Source: Loigolactobacillus iwatensis
Lineage (GTDB): Bacteria > Bacillota > Bacilli > Lactobacillales > Lactobacillaceae
Assembly (NCBI RefSeq): GCF_003950295.1
Contig: NZ_RHNP01000003.1
Coordinates: 1-64,000 of the forward strand
Direction of reading: 5' to 3'
Length of the DNA stretch: 64,000 nucleotides
Shown here: positions 33,541 to 51,424 of the stretch, piece by piece
Layout of the letters: each line of letters opens with the position of its first letter
How positions within the stretch are numbered: the stretch's first letter is position 1
The notes under the pieces: model-generated
What the model was told of the DNA's origin: nothing
The model's input: the letters and a program-made list of their open reading frames with translations, nothing else
Databases searched by the model: none
Position numbers and translations under genes: made by a program

Positions 33541-33563
33541 CAAAATATATGGGGGCAATAAGA

Positions 33564-34655
33564 ATGTCAGAAACAAAAAATGATGAAAAGCAGATTATGT
33601 CAAAGACTTACCGATTGGTTAAACCGGGCGATATTGAGGAACAAGAAATTTCACGAACACTTAAAAAAGGTTGGGTTGATGTTCAACCATTAATGGCAAG
33701 TGTTTGTCATGCTGATGATCGTTATTTTGCAGGACAACGTCGTCCAGAAGCATTGGCCAAAAAATTGCCAATGGCATTATTACATGAAGGTATTGGGACT
33801 GTAAAAGAGAGCATGAGCGATGAATTTAAGGTTGGCCAACGTGTCGTTGTTGCGCCTAACGTTCCTGGTTATGTACTAAGAGGAGAAAAGAAGACCGATA
33901 CTGTACCAGATAATTACAGTAAAGATGCTGCATTTATCAGTAGTGGTCACGATGGTATCGCACAAAGTGATTTAGTTCATCCTGAAAGTTGCTTAGTTCC
34001 AATTCCAGAGAATATTCCTGATGAAATTGCAATTTTGGCCGAAGTTAGTACGGTTGGTTATCATGCTTCTAGCCACGTTAAACATATTCTATCAAAGCCA
34101 AATGTAAAAGTTGCATTATTTGGCGATGGTCCCGTAGGTTATATGGCTGCAGCAGTACTTCATTATGTTTGGGGTATTAGCAAAGAAAACTTAACTGTTT
34201 ATGGAGCTATGAAGGATCGTTTAAGTAAGTTTACGTTTGCAACAAGAGAAATGGTTACTGAATATGACTTTGATAATGCAGAAGAACAATTCGATGTTAT
34301 TTTTGAAGCTACTGGTGGCCATTTCAGTTCAAGCGCAATCAATGAGGGTATTAAAGTTATTAAGCGGACTGGTAGTTTTGTTTTGATGGGTGTTACTGAA
34401 GAGCTAGTTCCAATTGATACTCGTGACGTACTTGAGAAAGGCTTAACACTTTATGGCACTAGTCGTTCAACGCCAGCCGATTTCAAGGTTGTCATTAAGA
34501 CAATGAGTGAAAAACTAGAATATCGCGAAGCTTTGCAAAAATTGTTGCCAGAAAAAGAAACCGTTATCAAAAATGCTGATGATTTAACAGCAGCATTTAA
34601 TAAAATTGTTGCTGATAAAGCTTGGAAGAAAGCAGTTCTGAAGTTTGAATGGTAA
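33564..34655 (+). CDS. TarJ-like polyol-phosphate dehydrogenase
   Basis: A 363-residue medium-chain dehydrogenase resembling ribitol-5-phosphate dehydrogenase TarJ (KLPMALLHEGIG, FGDGPVGYMAAAVL for NAD(P), VLEKGLTLYGTSRS near the C-terminus). The catalytic zinc Cys is in VCHADDRYF and the ligand pair in LLHEG; the four-Cys structural zinc lobe is missing, as in TarJ. First gene of a mannose-class PTS and Rpe operon, so it likely oxidises imported ribitol-5-P (or another pentitol-P) to ribulose-5-P rather than making teichoic-acid precursors. ATG at 33564 follows GGGGG at suitable spacing; the in-frame ATG at 33549 has none. Confidence 0.8.
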   Translation: MSETKNDEKQIMSKTYRLVKPGDIEEQEISRTLKKGWVDVQPLMASVCHADDRYFAGQRRPEALAKKLPMALLHEGIGTVKESMSDEFKVGQRVVVAPNVPGYVLRGEKKTDTVPDNYSKDAAFISSGHDGIAQSDLVHPESCLVPIPENIPDEIAILAEVSTVGYHASSHVKHILSKPNVKVALFGDGPVGYMAAAVLHYVWGISKENLTVYGAMKDRLSKFTFATREMVTEYDFDNAEEQFDVIFEATGGHFSSSAINEGIKVIKRTGSFVLMGVTEELVPIDTRDVLEKGLTLYGTSRSTPADFKVVIKTMSEKLEYREALQKLLPEKETVIKNADDLTAAFNKIVADKAWKKAVLKFEW

Positions 34656-34692
34656 TTAAAGTAAATTAAACCCGAAATGGAGGCGATTAGTA

Positions 34693-35112
34693 ATGGTAGG
34701 TTTCGTTATAGCAACTCATGGTAAATTTGCTGAAGGATTAATGGATGCAGTCGATTTAATAATGGGAGAACAAGAGAATACTGAAATGATTGGATTACAT
34801 CATGGTGATGACGTTAGTCAATTCGGCGATAGTCTGGCAGATAAAGTCAAGAAGGTCAGCACTGGAGATGGCGTTATCGTGTTCGCAGACCTGTTCGGAG
34901 CGAGTCCATATAATCAAGCGGCATTATGTTCTAGAAAGATTGAAGGTATTCCGTACAAATTAATTACTGGAGTTAGCTTACCAATGCTGGTTCAGGCATT
35001 TAATGATCGCATGTTGGGCAAGAATATAGAGGAAATTAAGGCTTCTTCTATGGAAGCTGGTAAAAAGGGAATTATTGAATTCTTCGATGAAATGCAAACA
35101 CAAAATAAATAA
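34693..35112 (+). CDS. PTS EIIA, mannose class
   Basis: A 139-residue cytoplasmic phosphocarrier. The phosphorylated histidine is His9 in VIATHGKFAEGL. VIVFADLFGASPYNQA is typical of EIIA-Man. It receives phosphate from HPr and passes it to the next gene's EIIB. SD GGAGGCG precedes the ATG. Part of a four-protein split permease (IIA, IIB, IIC, IID separately encoded). Confidence 0.92.
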   Translation: MVGFVIATHGKFAEGLMDAVDLIMGEQENTEMIGLHHGDDVSQFGDSLADKVKKVSTGDGVIVFADLFGASPYNQAALCSRKIEGIPYKLITGVSLPMLVQAFNDRMLGKNIEEIKASSMEAGKKGIIEFFDEMQTQNK

Positions 35113-35135
35113 TTAGATATTAAGGGGATGTAACT

Positions 35136-35612
35136 ATGTCAGAAATTGTATTAGCTCGAGTTGATGATCGTTTAATTCATGGTCAGGTTATGACTGCGTG
35201 GCTTCAATATACAGATGGTAATCATATTGTGATTGTCGACGATGCTACAGCTAAAGATGATTTCTTGAAGACTGTCATGAAAATGTCAGTGCCACAAGGG
35301 GTTAAATTAGATGTACTTACAGTTGAAGAGGGCTCTGATTTCCTACAGAAGGATCAGGGTAAGGATAATATTTTAGTTTTAGCTAAAACACCTGAAGTAT
35401 ATTTACAATTAGTTGAGGCCGGTGTGCCTTTAAAAGAAGTAATTGTTGGTGGAATGGGTGCAAATAGTGAACGATCAAAGTTTTATAAAAATATTTCCGC
35501 AACTGATGAAGAGCGCGAAACTTTCAAAAAGATTATTGATAAAGGTGTAAATGTAAAAATTCAGATCGTACCTAGTGATAAGGCTACGGATGCGGCTGGT
35601 TTATTAAAGTAA
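35136..35612 (+). CDS. PTS EIIB, mannose class
   Basis: A 158-residue EIIB with the phosphorylated His15 in ARVDDRLIHGQVMTAW, the class signature. It transfers phosphate to the sugar during import by the IIC/IID pair. 23 bp after EIIA; AAGGGGATG spacing is good. Confidence 0.93.
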   Translation: MSEIVLARVDDRLIHGQVMTAWLQYTDGNHIVIVDDATAKDDFLKTVMKMSVPQGVKLDVLTVEEGSDFLQKDQGKDNILVLAKTPEVYLQLVEAGVPLKEVIVGGMGANSERSKFYKNISATDEERETFKKIIDKGVNVKIQIVPSDKATDAAGLLK

Positions 35613-35632
35613 GTTTATAAAGGAGAATGGCT

Positions 35633-36397
35633 ATGACAATTCATTTGTGGCAGGCTTTCCTCATAGGGGTCGTATATTATCTCGGCCAAATGGGAACGCC
35701 TTGGGTATCATTAGCGGGTACCCATACGATTATGCGACCGTTAGTAAACGGTGCCTTAGTTGGTTTAATTCTAGGGGACCCTGTAAAAGGAACGATCTTT
35801 GGTGCAGCTATTCAGTTGCCTTTCCTAGCTTGGATTGGTGCTGGCGGCGCTGTTCCAATGGATACCGCTTTAGCTGGTACATTAGGAACTGCCTTAGGGA
35901 TGGCATCTAATGTTTCACCTTCAGTTGCAATTACATTGGCTGTACCGATTAGTTTGATTGGAACAATGATTTGGGTACTCCATATGACTGTCGATATAAC
36001 CTTTGTACATATGGCTGATACAGCAGCTGAAAAAGGTGACTTAAAACGAATTGACTTACTTCATGTTTGGCCGCCACAAATAACGATGTTTGTCTTCTCA
36101 GTTGTTCCGGCCATGCTAGCTGCTTATTATGGTGCCGGTCCAGTAAAGACGGTCATTGGTGGCTTAAGTGGGACACCACTTCATGTTTTAACCGTTATTG
36201 GTGGACTTCTTCCTGCTCTTGGTATTGCCATGAACTTACAGGCAATGACTGGTAAGGGTACGTTAATGTTCTTCTTACTTGGATTTATGTTGGCCGTATA
36301 TTCTAAGTTACCAATCTTAGCAATTGCCGTCTTCGCTGTTATCATTGCATATATTTATACTACTTTGTATTTGAAGAAAGGAAGCGAGAACGCATGA
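35633..36397 (+). CDS. PTS EIIC, mannose class
   Basis: A 254-residue membrane channel subunit with about 7-8 hydrophobic segments (GTPWVSLAGTHTIMRPLVNGA; QLPFLAWIGAGGAVPMD). AAGGAG almost touches ATG 35627; ATG 35633, with normal spacing, is preferred. The stop overlaps the IID start by four bases. Confidence 0.9.
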   Translation: MTIHLWQAFLIGVVYYLGQMGTPWVSLAGTHTIMRPLVNGALVGLILGDPVKGTIFGAAIQLPFLAWIGAGGAVPMDTALAGTLGTALGMASNVSPSVAITLAVPISLIGTMIWVLHMTVDITFVHMADTAAEKGDLKRIDLLHVWPPQITMFVFSVVPAMLAAYYGAGPVKTVIGGLSGTPLHVLTVIGGLLPALGIAMNLQAMTGKGTLMFFLLGFMLAVYSKLPILAIAVFAVIIAYIYTTLYLKKGSENA

Positions 36398-37263
36398 GCG
36401 ACAAAGAAGAAATTGAAAAAGAAGTATTGCCTTCAGAGAATAATCCTGATGCAAAAAAGATTTCAAAAAAAGAAGTTGTTAAGGCGTTCTGGCGTTGGAC
36501 TTTCTTCTCACATGCAAACTATAACTATGAACGTTTACAGGCAACAGGGGTTGTTTTCGCCCTCTCACCAATTCTGAAACATTTATATGGTAATGACCAG
36601 GATGCAATGAAAGAGGCTCTTAAACGACATATGCAGTTCTTTAATACCGAACCACATTTTGGTGGTGCTATCTTAGGTATGACAATTGCAATGGAAGAGG
36701 AAAAGTCTAATGGTGCACCAATTACCAATGATACTATTAATGGTTTAAAAACAGGATTAATGGGCCCACTTGCCGGAATTGGCGATACTTTATGGCAAGG
36801 CACTTTAATTCCAATCCTACTTTCATTCACGATCGGTTTTGCATCCAAAGGTAACATTTTAATGGGACCCGTATTGTTCGCCGTTTTACATTTAGGAATC
36901 ATCTGGTCAATCGGCTATTTTTCATGGATGCAAGGTTACTCTTTAGGTAAAGAAGGTATTGCAAAAGTTCTGCAAGGATCGTTACTACCAACAGTTATGA
37001 CCTTTGCTCAGTGTATGGGACCGATTGTCATTGGTGCTCTATCGGCAACGTTCGTTAAGGTATCAAGTCCTTTAAAGATACAGCTGGGTAAATCCGTTCT
37101 AAAGGTCCAATCAGGAATTTTGGATAAGTTGGTACTTGGTCTTTTACCGTTAGGGATAACATTATTGGCCTATTATTTATTGAAACGTAAGTTCAAACCA
37201 ACAACAGTTGTACTTATTCTAGTGTTAATTGGTGTTATTGGTGGTGCCTTCTACATCATCTAA
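36394..37263 (+). CDS. PTS EIID, mannose class
   Basis: A 289-residue membrane subunit. A charged N-terminus (residues 1-30), then NYERLQATGVVFALSPIL, FNTEPHFGGAILGMTIAMEE and GLMGPLAGIGDTLWQGTLIP, all standard EIID motifs, and about 5 hydrophobic segments at the C-terminus. Translationally coupled to EIIC (ATGA). Presence of IID defines the mannose class; sugar specificity is inferred from flanking enzymes. Confidence 0.93.
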   Translation: MSDKEEIEKEVLPSENNPDAKKISKKEVVKAFWRWTFFSHANYNYERLQATGVVFALSPILKHLYGNDQDAMKEALKRHMQFFNTEPHFGGAILGMTIAMEEEKSNGAPITNDTINGLKTGLMGPLAGIGDTLWQGTLIPILLSFTIGFASKGNILMGPVLFAVLHLGIIWSIGYFSWMQGYSLGKEGIAKVLQGSLLPTVMTFAQCMGPIVIGALSATFVKVSSPLKIQLGKSVLKVQSGILDKLVLGLLPLGITLLAYYLLKRKFKPTTVVLILVLIGVIGGAFYII

Positions 37264-37290
37264 CTAATCTATTTAGGAGAGTGAGAGAAC

Positions 37291-37941
37291 ATGGTTATTG
37301 CGCCATCGATTTTAAGTGCAAATTTCGCAAATCTTGAAAAAGATATTCACGTTGTGGAAGCAGGACAGGTTAGTTATCTTCACGTTGACGTGATGGATGG
37401 ACATTTTGTACCAAATATTACTTTTGGTCCTAGTGTCGTTGCAGCTATCCGTAAAGTAACTAAGCTAACGTTGGATTGCCATTTAATGATTGAAAATCCA
37501 GAGAATTTAATTCCTGAATTTGCGAAAGCAGGCGGCGATATCTTAACGATTCATGTTGAGAGTACACGGCATATCTATCGTGCTTTACAATTGATTCATG
37601 ATAATGGTGCTAAAGCGGGCATTGTCTTAAATCCTGGAACATCATTAGAAGCAATTAAACCTGTTTTATCATTAGTTGATCAAGTTCTTGTTATGACCGT
37701 AAATCCGGGCTTTGGCGGCCAAAAGTTTATCCCAGAAATGGTAAACAAGGTTGCTAAATTAAATCAGATTCGTCAGACTGGAAATTATCAATTTGATATT
37801 GAAGTTGATGGTGGAATCAATGATAAGACGATTAAGTCTTGCAGTGATGCAGGTGCAAACGTCTTCGTTGCCGGTTCATATGTTTATGGAGCTGATGATC
37901 CAGTGAAACAGATTAAGACTTTAGAGAATGTAGTTAAATAA
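37291..37941 (+). CDS. rpe: Ribulose-phosphate 3-epimerase
   Basis: A 216-residue TIM barrel interconverting ribulose-5-P and xylulose-5-P. Motifs: IAPSILSANFANL, HVDVMDGHFVPNITFGP (metal-binding His/Asp), LDCHLMIENP, VMTVNPGFGGQKFI, IEVDGGIN and AGSYVYG. Last gene of the operon; TAGGAGAG precedes the ATG. It supplies xylulose-5-P to phosphoketolase. A housekeeping rpe probably exists elsewhere. Confidence 0.94.
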   Translation: MVIAPSILSANFANLEKDIHVVEAGQVSYLHVDVMDGHFVPNITFGPSVVAAIRKVTKLTLDCHLMIENPENLIPEFAKAGGDILTIHVESTRHIYRALQLIHDNGAKAGIVLNPGTSLEAIKPVLSLVDQVLVMTVNPGFGGQKFIPEMVNKVAKLNQIRQTGNYQFDIEVDGGINDKTIKSCSDAGANVFVAGSYVYGADDPVKQIKTLENVVK

Positions 37942-38840: not shown

Positions 38841-40913
38841 GTGCTGGATAGTAGAGAAGAACAAATAATATCAGAAATTATCAAGAATCCACAAATTAAA
38901 TCAAAAGATTTGGCTAGTAAATATCAATTAAGCATAAGACAACTTACTTATTCACTTTCCAAGATTAATAGCGAATTAACTACAAAACACCTTAGATCTA
39001 TAAGGCGCACACGCAATGGCCAGTTTTTAATTAATGAAAAGACCAAAACGTTTTTGCTGAATAATGTTTTGAAAGTAAATGTAAACGGTTCCGATTCACA
39101 GAATGATTTTAATGATTTCTTTGATGAATCAACTCGATTAGATTTAATAAGTATTTTGTTAATAACAAATCCAGTAAAAACTACACTTGCTTCAATTTCA
39201 GTATTTTTACAAGTTAGTGAAAATACTGCTTTAAAAGATTTGAAATCCGCAAATGTAAGGCTGAGGGAGCATGATAGCAGAATTTATCATTCTCGAAAAA
39301 CCGGTTATATGATTGTTGGCAAGGAAATTAATTTATTGAATTATTTAACAAAATTAATTAGAAATTATTCCCTGAAACCGGAAAAACAACAAATTATTGA
39401 CAAAGTCCCCGGTCTACCAAAAAACAAAGTCATTCATTTGATTACTGAGCTCGAAAAAAAGCTCAATATTATTTATTCCGATTCTGCATTCTCACTTTTA
39501 ATTAACTTGTTGAGATTAACGCTTAACAGAATGAAATATTCTGACCCCGACCAAAGTATCCATGTAAGTAATGAGGTAAAGGAATCAATGGAATATTTGT
39601 TCTTAAAGGATTATTGCAAATTGGAAAATCTAAGTATTGGTTTATCAGATCGTATAGGATGGATTGCTCTTGTATTTTTATCAGTTAATACGCTTCAAAA
39701 TAACTCAATTTCTAATGAATCGGATTTATCGGAAGCAATAAAAAAAACGATCACTAATTTTGAAAACCAAACTTACATTATTGTTCAGAATAAACGGGAC
39801 TTTATTAAGCGCTTAACTTCACATCTCTTACCAGCCATATTTAGGACAAAATATGGCCTGAAATTAAATGATTTAGATTTTCCTGATGTGATCCATGATC
39901 AGAACCAGAATACATTTCTTCTAGATATTATTAAAACCTGTGTTAAGCCGATTGAAGATTTAATTGGCTTGCCACTGCCGGAAAATGAAATTCAGCTAAT
40001 AACGTTTTATTTTGGTTCGGAGTTAGCTAACTATACTAATAACATTGATTCAGCAAAAAAACGAGCTGCTGTCGTTTGTACCAATGGTCTTGTGGTTGCT
40101 CGGTTAATGCTGAATACACTGGTTGGAATATTTCCAGAAATTAATTTTGTTTCGGCAACTTCTGCACGGGAGTTTGATCGTTATCAAAATGATTACGATC
40201 TTGTTTTTACAACGTCGTTGCTAAAGACAAAAATTCCCCAATATATAGTGACACCGGTGTTATCCGCAGCAGAGCAAACAATGCTCAGATTTCGAGTATT
40301 AAATGAAATGAATCCAGAATTAATTACGAACGAAACCAATGAAATTCGTAGCATAGTTGAAAACCATGCTTTGGTTAAGGATGAAAAAGGGTTAAAAAAA
40401 TCTCTAACAAATTATTTAATTAATAGGGACAAACCAGATTCCAACAACAAGAAGTCATTCCAAACATTACCAGATATTACAAATTATGTTCATTTAGACT
40501 ATATACAAATTGCCAAACGGCCTCTTAATTGGGACGAAGCAATACGACTCGCCTGTGAGCCCTTATTAAAAAATCACGTGGTACTTCCAAAGTATGTAGA
40601 AAAATTAGTTGCACAAAGTGCAACTAATAAAAATTACAGTTTTTTACGTGAAAAGATCGCTATTCCACATACAACTGCGGACAATGGGGCACTCAGTGAT
40701 GGGTTTGGCTTCTTAGTGGCGGAAAACTATATCGACTTTCCAGGTAATCATTCTGCAATCATAATTATTCCAGTTGCACTTAAAAATACCGAATCACACC
40801 TTAGGGCCGTAAACCAATTAGTTACTTTATCAACAAATAATCAATTATTGAACGAAGTTACCACAACCGGATCGGTAACTGAAATTTATCAGATTTTGAA
40901 AAGATTAGCATAA
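38841..40913 (+). CDS. BglG/MtlR-type PTS-regulated transcription activator
   Basis: A 690-residue multidomain regulator. N-terminal HTHs (ILKNP-type first HTH at 10-60, NTALKDLKSANVRLREH near 130-145), two PRD regions (about 190-400), an EIIB-like part (AAVVCTNGLVVARLMLNTL, about 412-430; the usual Cys is shifted to VVCTNG), and a C-terminal EIIA domain with His610 in KIAIPHTTA. Phosphorylation by PTS proteins would set its activity. GTG start, AAAGGAGG eight bases upstream. It heads the seven-gene aldonate-type operon and presumably activates it. Confidence 0.88.
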   Translation: MLDSREEQIISEIIKNPQIKSKDLASKYQLSIRQLTYSLSKINSELTTKHLRSIRRTRNGQFLINEKTKTFLLNNVLKVNVNGSDSQNDFNDFFDESTRLDLISILLITNPVKTTLASISVFLQVSENTALKDLKSANVRLREHDSRIYHSRKTGYMIVGKEINLLNYLTKLIRNYSLKPEKQQIIDKVPGLPKNKVIHLITELEKKLNIIYSDSAFSLLINLLRLTLNRMKYSDPDQSIHVSNEVKESMEYLFLKDYCKLENLSIGLSDRIGWIALVFLSVNTLQNNSISNESDLSEAIKKTITNFENQTYIIVQNKRDFIKRLTSHLLPAIFRTKYGLKLNDLDFPDVIHDQNQNTFLLDIIKTCVKPIEDLIGLPLPENEIQLITFYFGSELANYTNNIDSAKKRAAVVCTNGLVVARLMLNTLVGIFPEINFVSATSAREFDRYQNDYDLVFTTSLLKTKIPQYIVTPVLSAAEQTMLRFRVLNEMNPELITNETNEIRSIVENHALVKDEKGLKKSLTNYLINRDKPDSNNKKSFQTLPDITNYVHLDYIQIAKRPLNWDEAIRLACEPLLKNHVVLPKYVEKLVAQSATNKNYSFLREKIAIPHTTADNGALSDGFGFLVAENYIDFPGNHSAIIIIPVALKNTESHLRAVNQLVTLSTNNQLLNEVTTTGSVTEIYQILKRLA

Positions 40914-40930
40914 AAAGAAGGTCATTGAGT

Positions 40931-41548
40931 TTGAATATTAATAATTACCCGAAAATAACAACAATCATGCGCGGATATACCCCTGAGCAGGCCCTAACAA
41001 TAATCAAAATGCTGAGCGGCTTTAATCATAAAATTGGTGTGGAAGTCACCACAAACAATCCAGACTATCTAAAAATAATTGAGGAGGGCACAAAAAAGTA
41101 TGGAGATACAGTCGATATTGGCGTCGGTACTGTTTTAGATATCGGACAGGCCAGAGATGCAATAATTGCAGGCGCACAATTTATGTTGGGCCCGACAAAT
41201 TTTACACCCGATATTTTTGAACTAGCACGACGGAATAATGTTATTACGGTTCCTGCTGCCATGTCACCAACTGAAATTTTAAAGATGAGGTCATTGGGTG
41301 CTGATATCGTAAAGATCTTTCCAGCAGTTACTGTACAACCAAAGTTCTTCAAACAAATTCAGGGACCTTTAGGAAAAATGCGGTTGATGGCTGTTGGTGG
41401 AGTTAATATCAAAAATGCTAAAGAATTCTTTGATAACGGAGCAGGTTATTTGGGTATAGGTTCAGGTATGTTCAATAAGACTGATGTTCAAGGCCTGAAT
41501 ATTGAAGGTCTTAAAAAATCTGTTGATAATTATGTAAAAATTATATGA
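40931..41548 (+). CDS. KDPG/KDPGal aldolase-like enzyme
   Basis: A 205-residue class-I aldolase of the Eda/DgoA family. Motifs: KITTIMRGYTPEQA with the active-site Arg, GVEVTTNNP (Glu), GVGTVLD, MLGPTNFTPDI, VPAAMSPTEI and the Schiff-base lysine in GADIVKIFPA (about residue 128). It would split 2-keto-3-deoxy-6-phosphogalactonate (or -gluconate) into pyruvate and glyceraldehyde-3-P. GAAGG lies nine bases before TTG 40931 and only three before TTG 40925, so 40931 is preferred. Neighbouring galactonate dehydratase favours the KDPGal substrate. Confidence 0.85.
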   Translation: MNINNYPKITTIMRGYTPEQALTIIKMLSGFNHKIGVEVTTNNPDYLKIIEEGTKKYGDTVDIGVGTVLDIGQARDAIIAGAQFMLGPTNFTPDIFELARRNNVITVPAAMSPTEILKMRSLGADIVKIFPAVTVQPKFFKQIQGPLGKMRLMAVGGVNIKNAKEFFDNGAGYLGIGSGMFNKTDVQGLNIEGLKKSVDNYVKII

Positions 41549-41565
41549 GTAGGTGGTGTTTTTTA

Positions 41566-42027
41566 ATGGATACAGAGTTGATAGACAAGAATGATATTTT
41601 TATCAATCAGGAATTCAAATCTAACACAGATTATTTTCAAAAAACATATCAAGTTTTATTGAAGGAAGGAAAAGTAAAAAAAAAGTTTATAGACAATATA
41701 CTTCAGCGAGAAAAAGATTATCCTACTGGGCTTAACACTGGTGAAATTAAAGTAGCAATTCCACATACTGATTATACCTACTCAAATACAACACAACTGG
41801 TAGTGACAACATTTAAAAGCCCGGTTGAATTTTATCAAATGGATAATTCATCAAGCAAAATTTCAGTGAATTTGGCAGTTATGATTCTTTTTAATAATCC
41901 CAAAAAACAACCAGAAACACTAAAATATATCATGAAAATAATCCAAAATCAGTCGTCTCTCAGTATGATCATGAAACAACAAAGTAAAGAATCAATGTCA
42001 AAACTTTTTAAAACATTCGGAGGTTAA
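41566..42027 (+). CDS. PTS EIIA, galactitol/fructose class
   Basis: A 153-residue EIIA of the GatA type, phosphorylated on His67 in VAIPHTDY. The ATG at 41566 has TAGGTGG upstream; the frame extends to 41545 without an SD. It donates phosphate to the small EIIB that follows 5 bp later. Confidence 0.88.
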   Translation: MDTELIDKNDIFINQEFKSNTDYFQKTYQVLLKEGKVKKKFIDNILQREKDYPTGLNTGEIKVAIPHTDYTYSNTTQLVVTTFKSPVEFYQMDNSSSKISVNLAVMILFNNPKKQPETLKYIMKIIQNQSSLSMIMKQQSKESMSKLFKTFGG

Positions 42028-42032
42028 TTATT

Positions 42033-42335
42033 ATGGATAATAAAAAAACTGTTATTGTGTGTTGCGCTTCATCAATGATTACATCAACTGTTGCTGCTGG
42101 TAAGGTTCGGGATGTTGCTTCGAGTAATGGTTTGCCGGAACCAAGAATTATTCAATGTAAGTTCTCAGAAGTTGAAGGTGAATTAGATACAAATAAAGTA
42201 GATTTCATAGTTCCAACGGGTAATTTAGATGAAACTGTGACACATGGTGTTAAAACAATTCTTGCTGCTGCATTTGTAACAGGTATTGGGGAAGATAAAG
42301 TTGAAAATCAAATTTTAGAAGCCCTTAAGGCTTAA
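42033..42335 (+). CDS. PTS EIIB, galactitol class
   Basis: A 100-residue GatB-type protein. VIVCCASSMITSTVAAGKV aligns with the class motif CGSGIATST, making Cys11 the likely phosphorylation site; the extra Cys10 is unusual. SD CGGAGG precedes the ATG. Confidence 0.88.
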   Translation: MDNKKTVIVCCASSMITSTVAAGKVRDVASSNGLPEPRIIQCKFSEVEGELDTNKVDFIVPTGNLDETVTHGVKTILAAAFVTGIGEDKVENQILEALKA

Positions 42336-42375
42336 CAGAATTGTATAGTTTCACAATTACTTGGAGGCGAGAAGA

Positions 42376-43659
42376 ATGCAAGTTGTTGTTAATGGCTTGA
42401 ATTGGATTAGTAAACTTGGACCAATGGTAATGATGCCTATTATTATTTTTGTTCTTGGATTAATTTTTCGAGTTAAGATAAATACCTTAGTTAAATCGGC
42501 ATTGACAATTGGTGTTGGGTTTGCGGGAGTAACGATTGTTATCAATTGGTTTGTTGCACAAGTAGGTCCCTCTGTTCACCTGATGGTAAAGCATTGGGGA
42601 ATACAAACTTCAATCATGGATGTAGGTTGGCCTGCTCGAGCTGCCGCAACGTGGGCCTTTCCATTAGCTGCTGTGGTTGTCTTTGTTGTTCTAGGTACAA
42701 ACGCTTTAATGCTGGTTACAAAAATGACAAATACGGTAATGGTTGATTTTTGGAGTTACAATCATTATATTTTTGCGGGGGCCTTGGTTTGGTATGTGAC
42801 AAAGAGTGCACCAATTGCACTGATTGTTGCCGCTTTAGATGCAGGTATTAGTTTCAAATTAGCCGATTGGACGGCGCCATTGGCACAGAAGTACTTTGGG
42901 TTAGAGGGAATATCGTTTCCAACCATAAACTCGGTTGCATGGGCACCAATTGCATGGGCCTTAGATAAATTATGGGGAGTGATTCCTGGTATTAAGAATA
43001 TTGATGCACGACCAGAAAAGATTCAAAAAAAATTTGGATTTGTTGGCGAACCATTGTTTATGGGCTTTATCATCGGTATTCTAATTGGGGCTTTGGCAGA
43101 GGAATCTATAGGAACTGTATTAATTGTTGGTATGAGTACTGCTGCAACAATGGTTCTTACTCCAAAAATGATGCAGATTTTAATGGAAGGTTTGATTCCA
43201 TTTGCGAACTCTATTAAGGGAATGCTTAACAAAAGATTCCCTCATAATAAATTCACTATTGGTATTGATGCAGCCTTAACTGTTGCAAATTCTTCAGCTA
43301 TTGCCTGTGGTATTATTATGGTTCCTATTACATTAGTATTAGCAGCAATTCTTCCAGGAAATAAGTTATTACCAATTTCTGATATTGCTTACCAAGCAAT
43401 GTGGTTATCAGCATGGCCTGTTGCATTTAGCAAGGGTAATATCTTTAGAGGCATTCTTTCAACGATGGTTATTACTTGTTGTGTTCTCTGGATCGCTACT
43501 AATTTAGCACCGGTTCACACTCAGTTAGCTCTCGCAGGTGGCTTTAAACTTGCAAAAGGAATGCACTATATTTCCACTGAGGATTCAGGTACACATTTGA
43601 CAGCGTGGATTTGGTACAAGTTAGCTCAGATTTTAAAAACTGTTTTTCCAGCAATTTAA
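42376..43659 (+). CDS. PTS EIIC, galactitol class
   Basis: A 427-residue GatC/SgcC-type membrane component with about 10-12 hydrophobic segments; KLGPMVMMPIIIFVLGLIF at the N-terminus and GALVWYVTKSAPIAL inside are typical. GGAGGCG stands before ATG 42376 (the TTG at 42361 overlaps the SD and is rejected). Substrate unknown: galactitol carriers have relatives for pentitols and other C6 compounds; the flanking dehydratase and lactonase suggest an aldonate or aldonolactone. Confidence 0.88.
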   Translation: MQVVVNGLNWISKLGPMVMMPIIIFVLGLIFRVKINTLVKSALTIGVGFAGVTIVINWFVAQVGPSVHLMVKHWGIQTSIMDVGWPARAAATWAFPLAAVVVFVVLGTNALMLVTKMTNTVMVDFWSYNHYIFAGALVWYVTKSAPIALIVAALDAGISFKLADWTAPLAQKYFGLEGISFPTINSVAWAPIAWALDKLWGVIPGIKNIDARPEKIQKKFGFVGEPLFMGFIIGILIGALAEESIGTVLIVGMSTAATMVLTPKMMQILMEGLIPFANSIKGMLNKRFPHNKFTIGIDAALTVANSSAIACGIIMVPITLVLAAILPGNKLLPISDIAYQAMWLSAWPVAFSKGNIFRGILSTMVITCCVLWIATNLAPVHTQLALAGGFKLAKGMHYISTEDSGTHLTAWIWYKLAQILKTVFPAI

Positions 43660-43696
43660 ATTTTAAATAATTTATCATTATAGGAGATCAATCAAT

Positions 43697-44842
43697 ATGA
43701 AGATTTCAGATTTTGTGATTTATAAAGTTAAGCCACGTTGGATTTTTGTTAAAATTTCTACTGACAACGGATTAAGCGGTTGGGGCGAAATGATTTCAGG
43801 TACCAAAACAGAAACTGTTGTTAGCGGTGCGAAAGAAATGGGAAAGACGCTCATCGGTCGTAATCCAAATAACATTGAACAGTTATGGCAAGAAATGCAT
43901 CGTTCGTTTTTCCGAGGAGGACCAATAAATGGTACGATCATTTCTGGATTTGAAATGGCTCTTTGGGATATTAAAGGTAAAGCATTGGGTGTACCTGTTT
44001 ATGATTTGTTAGGTGGTCCGGCTCGAGACAAAATACGAGTTTATTCTTGGATTGGTGGTGATCGTCCAAGCGACGTTGCTGAACAAGCAAAAGAGCGTGT
44101 CAAACTTGGGTTTACTGCAATAAAGATGAATGCCACCTCGGAATTACACTATATTGATTCATATAAGAAAGTACAAGCAGTTGTTGATCGTGTAGAGTCC
44201 ATTCGAAATGCAGTTGGTGATGATCTGGAAATTGGGATTGACTTTCACGGTCGTGTACATCGTCCTATGGCAAAGGTCTTAGCCAAGGCTCTCGAACCTT
44301 ACCACCCTATGTTTTTAGAAGAAGTTGTTCTCCCAGAAAATTGGGATTCCTTTGATGATATTGCTCGAGAAGTATCAGTACCCCTGGCAACAGGTGAAAG
44401 ACTTTATACAAGATGGGGATTTAAAGAGTTATTTAACCAAGGTGCCGTTGATATTGTTCAACCAGATGTTGCTATGTGTGGTGGCATTCTTGAAGCTAGA
44501 AAAATTGCAGCTATGGCCGAAGCATATGATATGGCGGTTGCACCTCATGCGCCATATGGTCCAGTTGCACTTGCAGCGACACTACAACTTGATGCTTGCA
44601 CACCAAATGTATTTATTCAAGAACAGAGTCTAGGTATCCATTATAATCAAGGCTTCGATTTGTTGGATTTTGTTGCTAATAAGGAAATCTTCCAGTATAA
44701 GGATAGTTATGTACAACTTCCAAAAAAACCCGGTCTAGGTATTGACATGGATGAAGATAAAATTAAAGATGTTGCTCAACAAGGTTTGGTATGGACTAAT
44801 CCAAAATGGAAGAACTACGATGGGACCATTGCTGAGTGGTAA
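43697..44842 (+). CDS. Galactonate-dehydratase-like enolase-superfamily enzyme
   Basis: A 381-residue mandelate-racemase/enolase-superfamily protein close to DgoD. It has IKMNATSEL, metal ligand Asp182 and His184 in IGIDFHGRVHRP, EEVVLPEN, ATGERLYTRWGF, QPDVAMCGGI and catalytic His in APHAPYGPVALAA. DgoD dehydrates D-galactonate to 2-keto-3-deoxygalactonate. No DgoK kinase is encoded nearby; with a PTS supplying a phosphorylated substrate, this enzyme may act on galactonate-6-P and feed the aldolase directly. AGGAG before the ATG. Confidence 0.85.
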   Translation: MKISDFVIYKVKPRWIFVKISTDNGLSGWGEMISGTKTETVVSGAKEMGKTLIGRNPNNIEQLWQEMHRSFFRGGPINGTIISGFEMALWDIKGKALGVPVYDLLGGPARDKIRVYSWIGGDRPSDVAEQAKERVKLGFTAIKMNATSELHYIDSYKKVQAVVDRVESIRNAVGDDLEIGIDFHGRVHRPMAKVLAKALEPYHPMFLEEVVLPENWDSFDDIAREVSVPLATGERLYTRWGFKELFNQGAVDIVQPDVAMCGGILEARKIAAMAEAYDMAVAPHAPYGPVALAATLQLDACTPNVFIQEQSLGIHYNQGFDLLDFVANKEIFQYKDSYVQLPKKPGLGIDMDEDKIKDVAQQGLVWTNPKWKNYDGTIAEW

Positions 44843-44860
44843 TGAAAGTGGGAAAATCAA

Positions 44861-45766
44861 ATGATTAATACAGTTTTAGGCCCAATCAAGAATGGTTCTT
44901 TAGGAACAACATATATACACGAACATCTGTATGTGTACCCCGATGCACAAGTTATGCACCAGGACTACACACTGGATGATCTTGACAAAAATATTGCCGA
45001 AGTCATTTCGTTTAAAAATTCCGGCGGCGACACTTTGGTTGATTTGACTCCTATTAATTATGGAAGAAGTCCAATGCTTTTGAGAAAAATTTCTCAGGCA
45101 TCAGGAGTAAATATAATTTGTATCACTGGGTTCCACAAAGAAGAGTTTCAGCCAAAGTGGTTAGAAAATATGTCAAATAAGGACGTTTATGATTTTCTAA
45201 CACACGAAATTATCGATGGAATTGGAACAAATAAAATTTTACCCGGAGCAATGAAATTGGGGACTAGCAAAAATACTATTACTGATTCCGAAAAACGCGT
45301 TATCGACGTTGAAGGTAACGTTCAACGTGATACACATATTCCAATTGTCACACATTGTGATCAAGGCACAATGGGCCTTGATCAGCTTGCTGGTTTAAAA
45401 GCAGCTGGTGCAGATCTAACGCACGTGTGTTTAAGTCACGTAGATTTATCTGAAGATGTTGATTATATAAAACGTATTTGCGACACTGGCGCAAGTATTA
45501 GTTTTGACCATATTGGTCGACACTTAAAAAACAAAGATAGTTTAAGAATCAATATGATTACTAACTTAGTAAATAGTGGATATTCTGATAACATTTGTTT
45601 GGCCGGGGATATGGGTAGAAAGAAATACTTTATTTCTTATGGTGGTGAGCCTGGTCTAAAATATATTTTAACAGATTTAAAATCAGAGTTACTTCAACAT
45701 ATCTCAGAGACAGATTATGCTAAAATGGTAACTACTAACCCACATAAAGTGCTTATTCGTCAGTAA
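44861..45766 (+). CDS. Phosphotriesterase-family lactonase
   Basis: A 301-residue amidohydrolase of the PTE/Php family (COG1735). Metal ligands visible: HEH in TTYIHEHLYV (about 18-24), bridging Lys in GAMKLGTSK, His in PIVTHCDQGT and CLSHVDLS, and Asp in CLAGDMGRK. Some members of this family open phosphorylated furanose lactones such as D-galactono-1,4-lactone-6-phosphate (established for Gram-positive homologues). As the last gene of a galactitol-class PTS, dehydratase and aldolase operon, that reaction fits. Weak SD, 18 bp after the dehydratase. Confidence 0.85.
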   Translation: MINTVLGPIKNGSLGTTYIHEHLYVYPDAQVMHQDYTLDDLDKNIAEVISFKNSGGDTLVDLTPINYGRSPMLLRKISQASGVNIICITGFHKEEFQPKWLENMSNKDVYDFLTHEIIDGIGTNKILPGAMKLGTSKNTITDSEKRVIDVEGNVQRDTHIPIVTHCDQGTMGLDQLAGLKAAGADLTHVCLSHVDLSEDVDYIKRICDTGASISFDHIGRHLKNKDSLRINMITNLVNSGYSDNICLAGDMGRKKYFISYGGEPGLKYILTDLKSELLQHISETDYAKMVTTNPHKVLIRQ

Positions 45767-45929: not shown

Positions 45930-46694
45930 TTACATAAATTTTTGATTATCTGAGATTTGTATATACTGTTGGATGATCAAATCAAGAATTAAAAATATTG
46001 AAAAATGTGGTGTGAAGTCTGAGGTATTTATCAGAAGTGGCTGTGAATAGCCATGAAGTGTCACGTCAGATAGTTTTTCTAGTGTACTGTTTGGTGTATT
46101 GACAATACTAAGAGTAGTTAAGGTTTCTGTGTTTTTAATACGTTGAATAAGTTGGACCAGTTCTTGTGACTCGCCACTATTTGAGATGAAAATAGCTAAT
46201 CCGTCTGTGGTTGATAGTTGATCTAAACTCCAGATTATTTGGTGATCTGAAATAAAAGAACAGTTTTTACCTAATTGTTGCAGAGCAAGATTAAGATATT
46301 GACCGCAAGCCGTTGTTAGCCCAATTGCGAAGATGAAAATCTGTTGTTTTTGTTTAATTAGTTGAGTAGTTTTTTGAATTCTATCTGGTAAATTTTCTTT
46401 CAGGGTACTTTGAAAATTATATTTAAAGTTAATATTAAAATCGCTTGATTGAGCCTCAATCGCTAAGTCATTTTTTACTTGTTCTAAAGCAATTTTTAGT
46501 CGACTAAATTTTTGTACCCCAAGTCTCTTACATAATCTTACAACAGTGGTGGTACTGACGTTATTGTCCGTAGCAACTTTAGTAATCGTAAGAGAATCAA
46601 TTTGATTAATATTATCGCCTAAATACTTTAGAATTAGTGATTCTGCAAATGTGAGTTCGGAAGTAACAGTTGGAAAATATTTGATTAAATTCAT
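45930..46694 (-). CDS. RpiR-family regulator (HTH + SIS)
   Basis: A 254-residue regulator. N-terminal HTH_6 (SLTITKVATDNNVSTTTVVRLCKRLG, residues about 34-59) and a C-terminal SIS domain (IFAIGLTTACGQYLN; AIFISNSGESQELVQLIQ) that binds a phosphosugar. GGAGG seven bases before the ATG. Divergent from the fructose-class PTS and alpha-mannosidase operon and probably its local controller. Confidence 0.88.
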   Translation of the reverse strand: MNLIKYFPTVTSELTFAESLILKYLGDNINQIDSLTITKVATDNNVSTTTVVRLCKRLGVQKFSRLKIALEQVKNDLAIEAQSSDFNINFKYNFQSTLKENLPDRIQKTTQLIKQKQQIFIFAIGLTTACGQYLNLALQQLGKNCSFISDHQIIWSLDQLSTTDGLAIFISNSGESQELVQLIQRIKNTETLTTLSIVNTPNSTLEKLSDVTLHGYSQPLLINTSDFTPHFSIFLILDLIIQQYIQISDNQKFM

Positions 46695-46756
46695 ACCAAT
46701 TCCTCCAATTGCATTTATTATAACCTAAATCAGGGTAAATTTTTACTCTAATTTAG

Positions 46757-46770
46757 GAAAAGCGCTTTCA
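46757..46770 (+). promoter_or_regulatory. cre-like site upstream of fructose-class PTS
   Basis: GAAAAGCGCTTTCA matches the CcpA consensus except the first two bases, 63 bp before the EIIABC start and between two divergent genes. Confidence 0.5.
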
Positions 46771-46832
46771 TACATTTGCTGGTATATTGGAATTGTAAGA
46801 TAAATTTATATACCTAGAAGGTAGGGATAACA

Positions 46833-48830
46833 ATGAAACTCGCGGAATTAACTTCAAGCGATCTAATTATATTGGATCAATCATACTCAACTAAAGATGA
46901 GGTCTTTGATGCGGTTGCAGAACGCCTAATAAAGGCAAAGATCATTCCGGATAAAGTTGATTTTGAGAAAGCACTTTATGCGCGTGAAAAAGAGAGCCCA
47001 ACTGGTCTTGAAAATGGAATTGCCATACCACATGCCAAGTCCAGTGCTATTAGTCGACCAGTTTTTGCCGTGGTTAGATCAACAACGGTTATTGACGGCT
47101 GGGAAAGCCTGTCACCAGACAACAATGTTTCGTTAATTTTTCTATTAGCAATACCCGAGAAAAGCGCTGGTGATTTTCACGTTGAACTTTTGGCCAAGCT
47201 ATCACGAGCAATGTTAAATAAAGATTTCATCACCAGTGTTAAAAATGCCACACAAGTTGAAGAAGTGATTAATGCGCTCGATAGGGTTGACGCAACAGAA
47301 AAGAATAAAGCAACCACTAATGAGCATGCTACATCCAAAAAGGGCTTAATTCTTGGTGTCACTGCCTGTCCAACTGGTATCGCACATACTTATATGGCAG
47401 CAGAAGCGATTGAAAAAACGGCCAAAGAAATGGGCTATGACGTTTATGTCGAAAAACAAGGTGCCAATGGGATTGAGGATCGCCCGTCTAAAGAACTCGT
47501 CAAAAAGGCTGATGGTTTAATTATCGCTGCCGATGTGGATTTGCATGAAATGAACTATTACGCTGGACTCCCTTATATTTCTGTACCTGTTTCAACACCA
47601 ATTAAGGACGCCAAGTCTTTAATTAACCAAGTCCTTAACCATCCAGATGGTAAGTTTACAACTGTTGAAGATGATGAGGAAGAAGGCCCAAGTAATAAAA
47701 AAAAGTCAATAGGAACTGAAATGTATCAGGCATTAATGAGTGGTATTTCATATATGATTCCAATTGTTGTCGGTGCAGGGCTAATGTCGGCAATACCACA
47801 AATTGGTGGGTTGTTGTATGGTTTAAAACCAGGTACTATCAGTAATATTGCCTATGCAACGAGTTCAAATTCTATCCTGCAATTTTTATATAATTTCAAT
47901 AGTTTCGGTGGCTTTATCTTTTCTTTGATGTATCCAGTATTAGCTGCGTTTATTGCTTATGCAATTGCAGGTAAAGTTGGCTTAGCCCCCGGTTTCATTG
48001 GTGGCGGCTTAGCCGGGGGTCTGATTTACACAGTTAACGGGATTAAGGATCATGTTTCCTCTGGATTCTTAGGCGCAATTTGTGTCGGCCTTGTTGCTGG
48101 TTATTTCTGTCGATTCTTAAACCAAAAAATTAAGTTATCTAAAAATATTCAATCTTTGAAGCCGATGCTTATCATTCCCTTACTCAGTATTATTTTGGTC
48201 TATGTTTTAAACCTTTATATTTTCGAACCAATCGGTGGTGGCTTAAACAAGCTACTTGTTGACATTATTGGTCAATCAACAGGTTCGTACTTTATTGCAA
48301 TTGTGATTGCTTTAGCAACTGCCTTTGATATGGGTGGTCCCTTCAACAAAGCGGCTTTCGCGGTTACGCTGGCACTTGCCGCTGATCACACTTTTCCCAT
48401 GACGGCAAATATCTTAGGTTGTATTATTCCACCGTTAGGTATTGGCGCTTCAGTAATTTTAAATCAACATGTATTTAAGCGTGATATTTACGATGATTCA
48501 TTAGTTGCAGCGGGGTATACGTCCTTTATTTCGGGGATCATCGGAATTAGTGAAGGTGCAATTCCGTTTGCTTTACGTGATCCGTTAATTACAATTCCAT
48601 TAAATATGGTTGGCTCTGCAATAGCAGCCGTTGTGGCAACGTTCTTTAAAGTAAAAATCTGGTTCCCAATTCCTCAATTCTGGGGCTGGCCACTAGTTGA
48701 AGGCTTATTGCCATATCTACTTTCGTTATTAATCGGTGTGCTCTTTGTTGCTATTGGTAATATTATGATTCGTGACCATATTGCCAAAAGAAAAATTAAA
48801 GTTTCTAAAAAGCAGTCGGTAGCAGTATGA
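46833..48830 (+). CDS. PTS EIIABC, fructose class (mannosylglycerate-type)
   Basis: A 665-residue fused permease. EIIA: His67 in GIAIPHAKS. Linker about 150-168. EIIB: Cys179 in VTACPTGIAHTYMAAE. EIIC from about 290: MYQALMSGISYMIPIVVGAG with about 8-10 membrane segments and GGPFNKAAFAV. The pairing with a GH38 alpha-mannosidase recalls MngA/MngB of E. coli, which import and cleave 2-O-alpha-mannosyl-D-glycerate; other alpha-mannosides are possible. Its stop overlaps the mannosidase start (ATGA). Confidence 0.9.
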   Translation: MKLAELTSSDLIILDQSYSTKDEVFDAVAERLIKAKIIPDKVDFEKALYAREKESPTGLENGIAIPHAKSSAISRPVFAVVRSTTVIDGWESLSPDNNVSLIFLLAIPEKSAGDFHVELLAKLSRAMLNKDFITSVKNATQVEEVINALDRVDATEKNKATTNEHATSKKGLILGVTACPTGIAHTYMAAEAIEKTAKEMGYDVYVEKQGANGIEDRPSKELVKKADGLIIAADVDLHEMNYYAGLPYISVPVSTPIKDAKSLINQVLNHPDGKFTTVEDDEEEGPSNKKKSIGTEMYQALMSGISYMIPIVVGAGLMSAIPQIGGLLYGLKPGTISNIAYATSSNSILQFLYNFNSFGGFIFSLMYPVLAAFIAYAIAGKVGLAPGFIGGGLAGGLIYTVNGIKDHVSSGFLGAICVGLVAGYFCRFLNQKIKLSKNIQSLKPMLIIPLLSIILVYVLNLYIFEPIGGGLNKLLVDIIGQSTGSYFIAIVIALATAFDMGGPFNKAAFAVTLALAADHTFPMTANILGCIIPPLGIGASVILNQHVFKRDIYDDSLVAAGYTSFISGIIGISEGAIPFALRDPLITIPLNMVGSAIAAVVATFFKVKIWFPIPQFWGWPLVEGLLPYLLSLLIGVLFVAIGNIMIRDHIAKRKIKVSKKQSVAV

Positions 48831-51424
48831 CAGAAGGCTATATAGTCAATTTAACTCATTGGGATCGAGAGTGGTATTTTTCCAATCAAGATGCAGTGGT
48901 TTTGAGCGACGAATTATTTTCTGATGTACTTGATGAATTGGAAAAACGGCCAGAAGCTAATTTTTGTTTGGATGGCCAAAGCTCAATTCTAGACGAATAT
49001 TTGCAAATTCATCCTGAAAATTCACGTCGGGTAAAAAAACTCGTACAAAATAAACAATTATTTATTGGGCCTTGGTTTACGCAGAGTGATTGTCTATTAG
49101 TTGATGGCGAATCTCTAATGCGTAATGTAATGATTGGTATCCGAGATTGTGAAGCCTATGGTGGTGCTATGTCAGTTGGTTATATTCCTGATAGTTTTGG
49201 ATTTAATGCTCAACTACCAACGATTTTAAATCAGGTTGGTATTGATAACATCATTTTTTGGCGAGGTATTGATTATCAAGAGCAAGTCTCATCCCCTTAT
49301 TTCAAATGGCAAGGACTTGGTGATACTAGCGTAACCGCAATGACTATTCCGTTAGGCTATGGCTGTGCCCCGAACATGCAAACTACATCAGAGTATATTT
49401 CGAATCGGCTAGATAAGTATATGAACTTTATTAATGATATTAGGCCACAAGACAATGTACTGGTGCCTGCGGGAGGGGATCAACAAAATATTGTCACGAA
49501 TATTCAGGATAAACTGAATGTGATTAATCAGAAAAGTAAGTATCATTATCACATTAGCTCGTTTAGCGATTTCTTGAACAAACTTAAACAGAGCAAAGAG
49601 TTGCCAAGTTATCGCGGTGAGTTCAGACTTCCGGCCTATGCACGACTTCATCGGACGATTTCATCAGTTCGGATAAATATTAAACAAGCTAACCATAATG
49701 CAGAGCAAAAACTAATTAAACAAGTCGAACCTTTGATGGTCTTAGGCCGAGAATATGGGATTAATATTTCTCAAGAATTATTAGTCGACGCCTGGAAAAA
49801 AGTCCTAGCTTCACAAGCACATGACAGTCTTGGCGGTTGTGTTTATGATGCTGTGTCTGATGATATCATGCACCGCTACAAAGAGGCAGACGAGCTTTCA
49901 GACGGTATTCAGAATTTAATTTTAAGACGGTTGGCCGATAAGTTGGCGCTATCTGAAAATCAAGTTTTACTTGTGAACACTGAAGCAGAAGCTAAGGATC
50001 GCTATTACAAAGTAAATATTTTGACTAATAGGAAAAATATCAAATTCAAAGGTATTACAGATGCGTTTATCGTTAACGAGCACTATTATCCTGCAAGAGA
50101 ACATATCTTAATCGAAAAGCCAGAGGGTAAGAGCTATCTCACTGAACCTGCTTATTTTGAATTATCAGTGATGTTAAAAACAACTGTCCCTGGCCTAGGA
50201 TATAAAGTAATTGACTTTAATGATGATCAGTTGGAGTTACCAACTTTTAAGACTGTTGAACTAAATTCAACACCAAAAATTGAGACTACTGACGTTAAAA
50301 TTGAATTTTTAAACGGCAATATTTCTGCAACTTTCAATGGTAAAACAATGCCCAATTTAATAAAATTAGTTGATTGTGCGAATGATGGTGACACCTATGA
50401 TTTTTCACCGTTAAAAGGAGATACGGAAGTTGAACTACCGTTTAATACAGCCAACGCACAAGTGAGTGGGAAAATTCAGCAATTAATTATCAACGGGACG
50501 ACAAATCTACCTTACGATCTCATTGACCGACAAAATACGTCTGGTCAAACAAAGGCAATCAATTATAAATTAGTCCTGAGTTTAAACGATGATACCAATA
50601 CTATTTCGGGTGAATTTTACGTTGATAACACAGTTTGTTCTCACCGGATGCGTTTAGTCTTAAATCCTGAAATAAAAAATGCTGACGTTTTTGCTGGCTT
50701 AACCGCAGGAGCGCTCAAAAATAATCAAATTGATATGCACGATACTGACGGCTATGATGAATACCCAGCACCTTTAAATGTGTTTGATAAAGTAGTCTCG
50801 CTTAGTAATCATGCTTCATCTTTTTCCTTTTATGGTGGTGCAAGTAAAGAATATGAATTAGCCGCAGATAAGCTCTATATCACATTGTTTGCGAGTACTG
50901 GTCAGTTTGGAAAGCCCAATTTAATGTGGCGCCCTGGGCGTGCAAGCGGCGATACCACTAACCAGGGGCACGTGATGATAGCAACACCAGAAGCACAATT
51001 ACTTGGTCCGCAAGAGTTTGATTTTTCCTTGAAGCTATTTTCGCAGACATTTAATCCCTTAAAAGTTCAAAGTGTTGCCGACGAGGTCTATGCAGCAAAC
51101 GTTAGTTACCAGAACCAAAGCTTGAATTATTTTATAAATAGATTAGATAATAAGATTCAAAAAAAACAAGAGAAGCCTTTAACCAAAAAGAAATCAGGGA
51201 TGCTTGAACTTGATGGACTCACTGTGTCATCAATTTATCCCTCTTACAAAAATAATAATAGGTATTTAATTCGGGTAACCAATCCAACTAGCAATGCAAA
51301 GAAAATTAATACTGATCTATTTTCTAACCATAATCCAGAAATTGTTAACGCGTTAGAAGTTCATCAAGAACAAAAATTTGTTGTTGAACCCTACGATATG
51401 GTTACAATAAAGTTAGATTATTAA
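48827..51424 (+). CDS. mngB: GH38 alpha-mannosidase (MngB-like)
   Basis: An 865-residue cytoplasmic glycoside hydrolase family 38 enzyme. Zinc/active-site motifs: LTHWDREWY (about 10-17), GPWFTQSDCLLVDGESLMRN, and the nucleophile Asp in GYIPDSFGFNAQLP (about 117). AHDSLGGCVYDAVSDD is the second conserved block, followed by C-terminal beta domains. No signal peptide, so it acts on sugar already imported, presumably as a 6-phosphate, by the EIIABC of the preceding gene. Products would be mannose-6-P and the aglycone. Confidence 0.9.
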   Translation: MTEGYIVNLTHWDREWYFSNQDAVVLSDELFSDVLDELEKRPEANFCLDGQSSILDEYLQIHPENSRRVKKLVQNKQLFIGPWFTQSDCLLVDGESLMRNVMIGIRDCEAYGGAMSVGYIPDSFGFNAQLPTILNQVGIDNIIFWRGIDYQEQVSSPYFKWQGLGDTSVTAMTIPLGYGCAPNMQTTSEYISNRLDKYMNFINDIRPQDNVLVPAGGDQQNIVTNIQDKLNVINQKSKYHYHISSFSDFLNKLKQSKELPSYRGEFRLPAYARLHRTISSVRINIKQANHNAEQKLIKQVEPLMVLGREYGINISQELLVDAWKKVLASQAHDSLGGCVYDAVSDDIMHRYKEADELSDGIQNLILRRLADKLALSENQVLLVNTEAEAKDRYYKVNILTNRKNIKFKGITDAFIVNEHYYPAREHILIEKPEGKSYLTEPAYFELSVMLKTTVPGLGYKVIDFNDDQLELPTFKTVELNSTPKIETTDVKIEFLNGNISATFNGKTMPNLIKLVDCANDGDTYDFSPLKGDTEVELPFNTANAQVSGKIQQLIINGTTNLPYDLIDRQNTSGQTKAINYKLVLSLNDDTNTISGEFYVDNTVCSHRMRLVLNPEIKNADVFAGLTAGALKNNQIDMHDTDGYDEYPAPLNVFDKVVSLSNHASSFSFYGGASKEYELAADKLYITLFASTGQFGKPNLMWRPGRASGDTTNQGHVMIATPEAQLLGPQEFDFSLKLFSQTFNPLKVQSVADEVYAANVSYQNQSLNYFINRLDNKIQKKQEKPLTKKKSGMLELDGLTVSSIYPSYKNNNRYLIRVTNPTSNAKKINTDLFSNHNPEIVNALEVHQEQKFVVEPYDMVTIKLDY

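Follow-up and report, generated by a model that had tools for sequence, protein, structure and literature searches.

The dgo pathway of Escherichia coli (dgoRKADT, the DeLey-Doudoroff pathway) starts from free galactonate, which enters via DgoT, and phosphorylation by DgoK follows dehydration. Phosphorylation at import, by a phosphotransferase system (PTS), is already known for gluconate and ascorbate. The gluconate and D-glucosaminate PTS routes of Gram-positive bacteria and Salmonella phosphorylate the aldonate on import and lead to 2-dehydro-3-deoxy-6-phosphogluconate (KDPG) without a 2-dehydro-3-deoxygluconate (KDG) kinase, and the L-ascorbate system (ulaABCDEF) delivers a lactone 6-phosphate that is then opened by a lactonase. 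Here we analyzed the first 64,000 nucleotides of contig NZ_RHNP01000003.1 of Loigolactobacillus iwatensis (the window), which contains a seven-gene operon (38841-45766). The operon probably codes for the catabolism of a galactonate-type aldonic acid that is taken up as the lactone and phosphorylated first by the PTS, with no need for a kinase.

The operon has the same dehydratase family, aldolase fold, and predicted end products as the E. coli dgo pathway, but it contains no DgoT, DgoK is absent from the genome, and phosphorylation is predicted to take place at import. It resembles ulaABCDEF in having a PTS of the ascorbate/galactitol superfamily and a lactone 6-phosphate predicted to be opened by a lactonase; however, UlaG has a metallo-beta-lactamase fold, and the downstream steps of Ula are decarboxylation and epimerization, not dehydration and aldol cleavage. 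The gluconate and glucosaminate PTS routes differ in their EII classes and in using what we take to be Edd or a pyridoxal phosphate-dependent ammonia-lyase, not an enolase-superfamily enzyme. We know of no sugar-acid dehydratase of the mandelate racemase type that acts on a phosphorylated substrate, and the one proposed here would be the first. In the literature, a predicted gluconate PTS of Enterococcus faecalis has been mentioned (PMC4528170), and a comparative study of the same species lists dgoD together with the PTS-Gat EIIA, EIIB, and EIIC genes among those specific to blood isolates, giving no pathway (PMC6042284). Our search of an open literature library on galactonate PTS, 6-phosphogalactonate dehydratase, and phospho-furanose lactonase found nothing specific, and no paper on a 6-phosphogalactonate dehydratase was among the titles listed.

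Proposed pathway and absence of a kinase

In the pathway that we propose, the galactitol-class EIIABC would, with phosphoenolpyruvate (PEP), EI, and HPr, take in the 1,4-lactone and release its 6-phosphate inside the cell, where a PTE-family lactonase would open it to 6-phosphogalactonate. A DgoD-like dehydratase that has lost Glu35 and gained the motif S-G-T-x-T (here called the SGT form) would then convert 6-phosphogalactonate to 2-dehydro-3-deoxy-6-phosphogalactonate (KDPGal), and the aldolase would split KDPGal into pyruvate and glyceraldehyde-3-phosphate. Expression would be tied to the state of the PTS by the PRD/EIIA regulator. All of these substrates and their stereochemistry, including the lactone, are predictions. 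The gene content, the absence of a kinase, the loop switch tied to the PTS, and the exchange of an EIIC and PTE cassette are observed directly in the sequences.

The seven genes all lie on the + strand, with intergenic gaps of 11, -4, 5, 25, 37, and 18 bp, in the order PRD/EIIA regulator, KDPG-type aldolase, EIIA, EIIB, EIIC-Gat, DgoD-like dehydratase, and PTE-type hydrolase. All seven genes listed in the original prediction, which was made from the DNA alone, were confirmed to be present. As the same operon was found again in dozens of genomes, it is not a chance arrangement.

That prediction had also noted that the operon has no DgoK kinase; in the whole genome (2.62 Mb in 89 contigs, 99.99% complete), DGOK (PF05035) has zero matches. 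NCBIfam assigned members of the PfkB family to ribokinase, tagatose-6-P kinase (LacC), 1-phosphofructokinase (FruK), and phosphomethylpyrimidine kinase (ThiD), and the fifth and last PfkB match, which is below the cut-off, was classed by inspection as pyridoxal-kinase-like; none of the five is a KdgK-type kinase. A kinase acting in trans, which the original prediction had itself named, together with a dehydratase accepting only unphosphorylated galactonate, as speaking against it, was rejected, as the DGOK and PfkB searches of the genome gave none that fits.

A distinct form of galactonate dehydratase

The dehydratase (43697-44842, +), a predicted 6-phosphogalactonate dehydratase, has both the N- and C-terminal MR_MLE domains of Pfam and matches the curated NCBIfam model for galactonate dehydratase (NF010624) over its entire length (residues 1-381 of 381) with 612 bits against a cut-off of 311. 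It is 48-49% identical to E. coli DgoD, and it shares with that enzyme and with the Ralstonia structures 3rr1/3rra the fold (TM score of ~0.94) and all metal and acid/base residues. These residues (D183, H185, E209, E235, and H285 in E. coli numbering) are identical in the 32 PTS-linked and 30 other DgoD sequences of our first set. The difference lies in a capping-domain loop, which reads P-(V/I)-x-E-G in kinase-linked DgoDs and SGTKT in the window dehydratase (codons 34-38, 43796-43810, +). In the first set, S34-G35-T36-x-T38 was present in 32/32 PTS-linked sequences and 0/30 of the others, all 30 of which have Glu35, mostly within (V/I)-E-G-x-A (the EG form). Because everything except this loop fits the family, we filed the enzyme as a distinct DgoD subfamily, and its sequence suggests that it probably acts on the 6-phosphate.

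We enlarged the set to 49 distinct SGT and 43 other sequences, with identical ones merged and some species shared between the draws. An EIIC gene lies within 8.5 kb of 47/49 SGT sequences, the remaining two being on contigs of ~3 kb, while none of the 43 non-SGT sequences is near an EIIC and 27 of them have DGOK or PfkB in their neighborhood. The association of SGT with EIIC has a Fisher P of ~3e-24, which takes no account of shared descent. The association spans several families of Bacillota as well as Olsenella (Actinomycetota). The PTS-linked DgoDs form one clade (support of 100/100, stem of 0.4), which would allow a single origin of both the altered loop and the link to the PTS. The tree thus suggests that the association is a single event retained over many lineages, together with the within-genome control described below, and not dozens of independent events.

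In an AlphaFold2 model (mean pLDDT of 90), SGTKT lies between the strand at 27-33 and the N terminus of the helix at 38-50, and helix N termini are a usual place for phosphate binding. The loss of a glutamate and the gain of hydroxyls at the start of this helix would suit a 6-phosphate substrate, which makes the loop a candidate phosphate-binding site. We take the loop to be the equivalent of the "50s" specificity loop of mandelate racemase. The residue of E. coli RspA, a relative of ManD, that aligns to this position is Asn37, presumably a substrate-contacting residue in D-mannonate dehydratase. Beside the loop, the PTS-linked clade also differs at barrel positions 260, 285, 287, and 295.

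The kinase content of the genomes also differs, as DGOK was found in 0/30 genomes with a PTS-linked DgoD versus 9/20 with a non-PTS one. Among 395 Lactobacillales genomes that we drew, DgoD was present in 26 besides the genome of the window, and only one of those 26 (G365) has DGOK. This genome contains both forms. One locus (L121) has an SGT-DgoD with EII genes and an aldolase and without DGOK, and the other (L122) has an EG-DgoD with DGOK, an aldolase, a GntR-type regulator, and a membrane protein of 444 amino acids that by inspection is probably a GntP-type permease. The kinase of L122 (on G365:C76) matches PF05035 without any NCBIfam hit. G365 is therefore a control within a single genome, with each form of DgoD in its expected operon.

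Operon types and exchange of the import cassette

The dehydratase search of named genomes gave 67 loci, to which a second draw added more, and we distinguished four PTS layouts. Type I comprises the window, L004, L013, L016, L018, and L021, with EIICs that are 69-86% identical and with the PTE gene, which adjoins the dehydratase in this type only. Type II (22 loci of the first set, in Lactobacillales, Peptoniphilaceae, and Sporolactobacillus) has EIICs that are 35-40% identical and lacks PTE, consisting of regulator, EIIABC, dehydratase, aldolase, and mostly a small membrane protein. Type III, in Thermoanaerobacter, Fonticella, and Sporolactobacillus nakayamae, has additional 2-hydroxyacid dehydrogenases and an altronate/galactarate-dehydratase-like pair. 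Type IV (L119-L121) has a 2-hydroxyacid dehydrogenase, a protein of no assigned family, and a xylose-isomerase-like protein. The non-PTS DgoDs are near DGOK or PfkB kinases or have neither a kinase nor an EIIC found nearby.

Most relatives have such a minimal operon with only EII, dehydratase, and aldolase as its core. KDPGal-type aldolases require a 6-phosphate substrate, as established for Eda and DgoA, and since the only enzymes here are the dehydratase and the aldolase, the route is complete only for an aldonate that is phosphorylated on entry. This argument holds independently of the PTE gene.

The EIICs of type I are monophyletic (100/100), although the tree tool flags long branches between the types. 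On the dehydratase tree, in contrast, the type I members are scattered, requiring five changes, of which supported branches make at least four necessary; one common type I clade was rejected (approximately unbiased test, P = 0.0005). The window dehydratase is sister (92%) to that of the type II locus L050, and Lacticaseibacillus zeae has one operon of each of types I and II with dehydratases that are 95% identical. This scatter and the L. zeae pair show that the importer and the hydrolase are swapped as a cassette while the dehydratase stays. In all likelihood, the importers of types I and II feed a common phospho-acid to one kind of dehydratase, so the type I substrate would be one hydrolysis away from that acid, and a lactone is the simplest compound of this kind.

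Some further features of these loci can be mentioned. The small membrane-like protein that follows the dehydratase in most type II operons has 150-200 amino acids and no Pfam or NCBIfam family (for example, L005:11180-11779, with equivalents in L002-L012, L015, L019, L050, and L060). At L023, L024, L027, L055, and L119-L121, the SGT dehydratase is accompanied either by a split altronate/galactarate-dehydratase-like protein and 2-hydroxyacid dehydrogenases or by a xylose-isomerase-like TIM protein and a protein of 344 amino acids, extra enzymes through which further epimers may enter this route. L008 (Streptococcus parasanguinis) and L009 (Enterococcus lactis) have identical dehydratases, near-identical operons, and the same downstream genes, reflecting either that the genes were transferred recently or that one assembly is contaminated.

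Aldolase and PTE-family hydrolase

The aldolase (40925-41548, +; Pfam Aldolase, 3.1e-22) is a class I enzyme of the KDPG/KDPGal type that fits PF01081 and keeps the Schiff-base lysine in IVKIFPA as well as the AVGG and GIGS motifs. It and the L122 aldolase, which is DGOK-linked, share 62-63% identity, more than it shares with most type II aldolases, and this identity suggests that both cleave the same product.

The PTE-family metallohydrolase (44861-45766, +; Pfam PTE, 1.6e-53) is a predicted sugar-lactone-phosphate lactonase. Its best solved relative is 3pnz (7.3e-44), which we take to be the Listeria phospho-furanose lactonase Lmo2620. The two share the metal ligands (HxH, Lys, His, His, and Asp) and the motif GD..RK.Y..Y...PGL. 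With the phospho-furanose lactonases (Lmo2620/3pnz, NF045706), the window protein has in common the fold, the ligands, and a C-terminal Arg/Tyr motif. Unlike those enzymes, it lacks the Lys-Tyr pair and sits beside a dehydratase and an aldolase. The tie of PTE to one EIIC clade and the similarity to 3pnz support the lactone part of the pathway only indirectly.

Alternative explanations

Several observations weigh against the pathway as proposed. A PfkB gene lies within 8.5 kb of four SGT loci (e.g., at L029, in the adjacent upstream gene group), and 16 of the 43 EG-type loci have no nearby kinase, in part due to short contigs. The aldolase profiles do not separate KDPG from KDPGal specificity. 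The PTE protein scores 111 bits against the phospho-furanose lactonase model NF045706, whose cut-off is 630, and of the phosphate-contacting residues, as listed for the Mycoplasma synoviae enzyme, it shares with 3pnz the Arg and Tyr that follow the metal-binding Asp but not the Lys-Tyr pair. A phosphorylated substrate of the dehydratase is the better-supported half of the proposal, and the lactone is the weaker one. For the first half, it is highly improbable that the dehydratase uses unphosphorylated galactonate as in E. coli, with the PTS importing an unrelated sugar and a kinase encoded elsewhere. The identity to E. coli DgoD and the score above the curated cut-off would agree with such an enzyme, but the genome has neither DGOK nor a KdgK-type kinase, the operon has no aldonate permease, SGT is strictly associated with EIIC, and there are operons whose sole catabolic enzymes are the dehydratase and the aldolase. 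A PTS-first, kinase-free route with the dehydratase acting on a 6-phosphate, as originally predicted, is strongly supported by the lack of a kinase in the whole genome, the minimal operons, the loop, and the two forms in G365.

The same PTS-first route with a phosphorylated substrate could also serve another hexonic acid or lactone (e.g., a gluconate, gulonate, or talonate epimer), yielding KDPG or another epimer, which we find rather unlikely. The aldolase matches the NCBIfam KDPG and KDPGal models about equally, each below its cut-off; the changes in the loop and at the four barrel positions could alter recognition at C4/C5; and the extra enzymes of types III and IV hint at the entry of other epimers. 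However, the catalytic residues for C2/C3 are the same as in galactonate dehydratase, and the aldolase has 62-63% identity to that of an operon with DGOK and EG-DgoD. The profiles do not decide the KDPGal type that the original prediction gave to the aldolase, and the kinship with L122 supports it. It is also conceivable, though we do not expect it, that the pathway is as proposed but PTE hydrolyzes an aldonate derivative that is not a lactone (ester, amide, or phospho-derivative), type I then importing a conjugate. The functions of the PTE family are diverse, and the low lactonase score fits such a role. Against it, the nearest solved relative is 3pnz, with the ligands and the RK.Y..Y...PGL part of the motif conserved, and an aldonate lactone would join the type II route by exactly one hydrolytic step. 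For the lactone and lactonase of the original prediction, then, the link to one EIIC clade and the resemblance to 3pnz speak in favor, and the distance to the NF045706 cut-off speaks against.

PTS components, regulation, and neighboring genes

The EIIA (41545-42027, +; galactitol/fructose class, Pfam PTS_EIIA_2) has its phospho-acceptor His in AIPH at residue 71, and the EIIB (42033-42335, +; galactitol class, Pfam PTS_IIB, NCBIfam GatB below cut-off) has its Cys in VCC. The EIIC (42361-43659, +; EIIC-GAT family, 8.5e-70, type I clade) falls into the NCBIfam galactitol subfamily but under its cut-off (387 versus 542 bits). The three proteins therefore belong to the galactitol class of EIIs, but galactitol specificity is not indicated, since the galactitol catabolic genes adjoin a second EIIC. 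The only other EIIC-Gat gene of the genome is in an operon with an SDR dehydrogenase, LacD, and LacC (contig positions 67950-74073), a genuine galactitol operon, which leaves the EIIC described here free for another substrate. Galactitol was rejected as the substrate of this PTS because of that separate operon.

The regulator (38841-40913, +) is a PTS-responsive transcriptional regulator with a Mga helix-turn-helix, PRD, and EIIA domains (Pfam PRD, Mga, and PTS_EIIA_2), contains an EIIA-like AIPH motif, and is encoded at the start of the operon in most type I and II relatives. A scan for catabolite-responsive element (cre) sites at the operon gave no match at ≤1 mismatch, and promoter-like matches were not above chance level; nine terminator-like matches were observed, with 5.0 ± 2.4 expected.

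Upstream, at 33527-37941, there is an operon for a mannose-class PTS, with EIIA, EIIB, EIIC, and EIID genes between one resembling alcohol dehydrogenase and one resembling ribulose-phosphate 3-epimerase. In front of these genes, at 33527-33540, is a cre-like site that forms a perfect palindrome, TGAAAACGATTACA. Downstream (45930-51424) are an RpiR-type regulator on the opposite strand, a fructose-class EIIABC whose best match, below cut-off, is the mannosylglycerate PTS, and a large protein that by inspection resembles a GH38-type alpha-mannosidase. This stretch is probably a separate alpha-mannoside PTS unit.

Significance

More generally, we lean toward the view that a distinct, undescribed subfamily of 6-phosphoaldonate (6-phosphogalactonate) dehydratases of the enolase superfamily, with SGTxT as the phosphate loop, defines a widespread Gram-positive PTS-first galactonate pathway with interchangeable cassettes for acid and lactone. 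Curated models call the SGT proteins galactonate dehydratase, which is likely a misannotation, and the loop residues provide a simple rule to split them. If the proposal is true, the galactonate pathway would gain a branch that dispenses with an ATP-dependent kinase and receives its phosphate from PEP during uptake. The carriers are lactic acid bacteria, enterococci, streptococci, and anaerobic cocci, which would thus be predicted to grow on galactonate or galactono-lactone.

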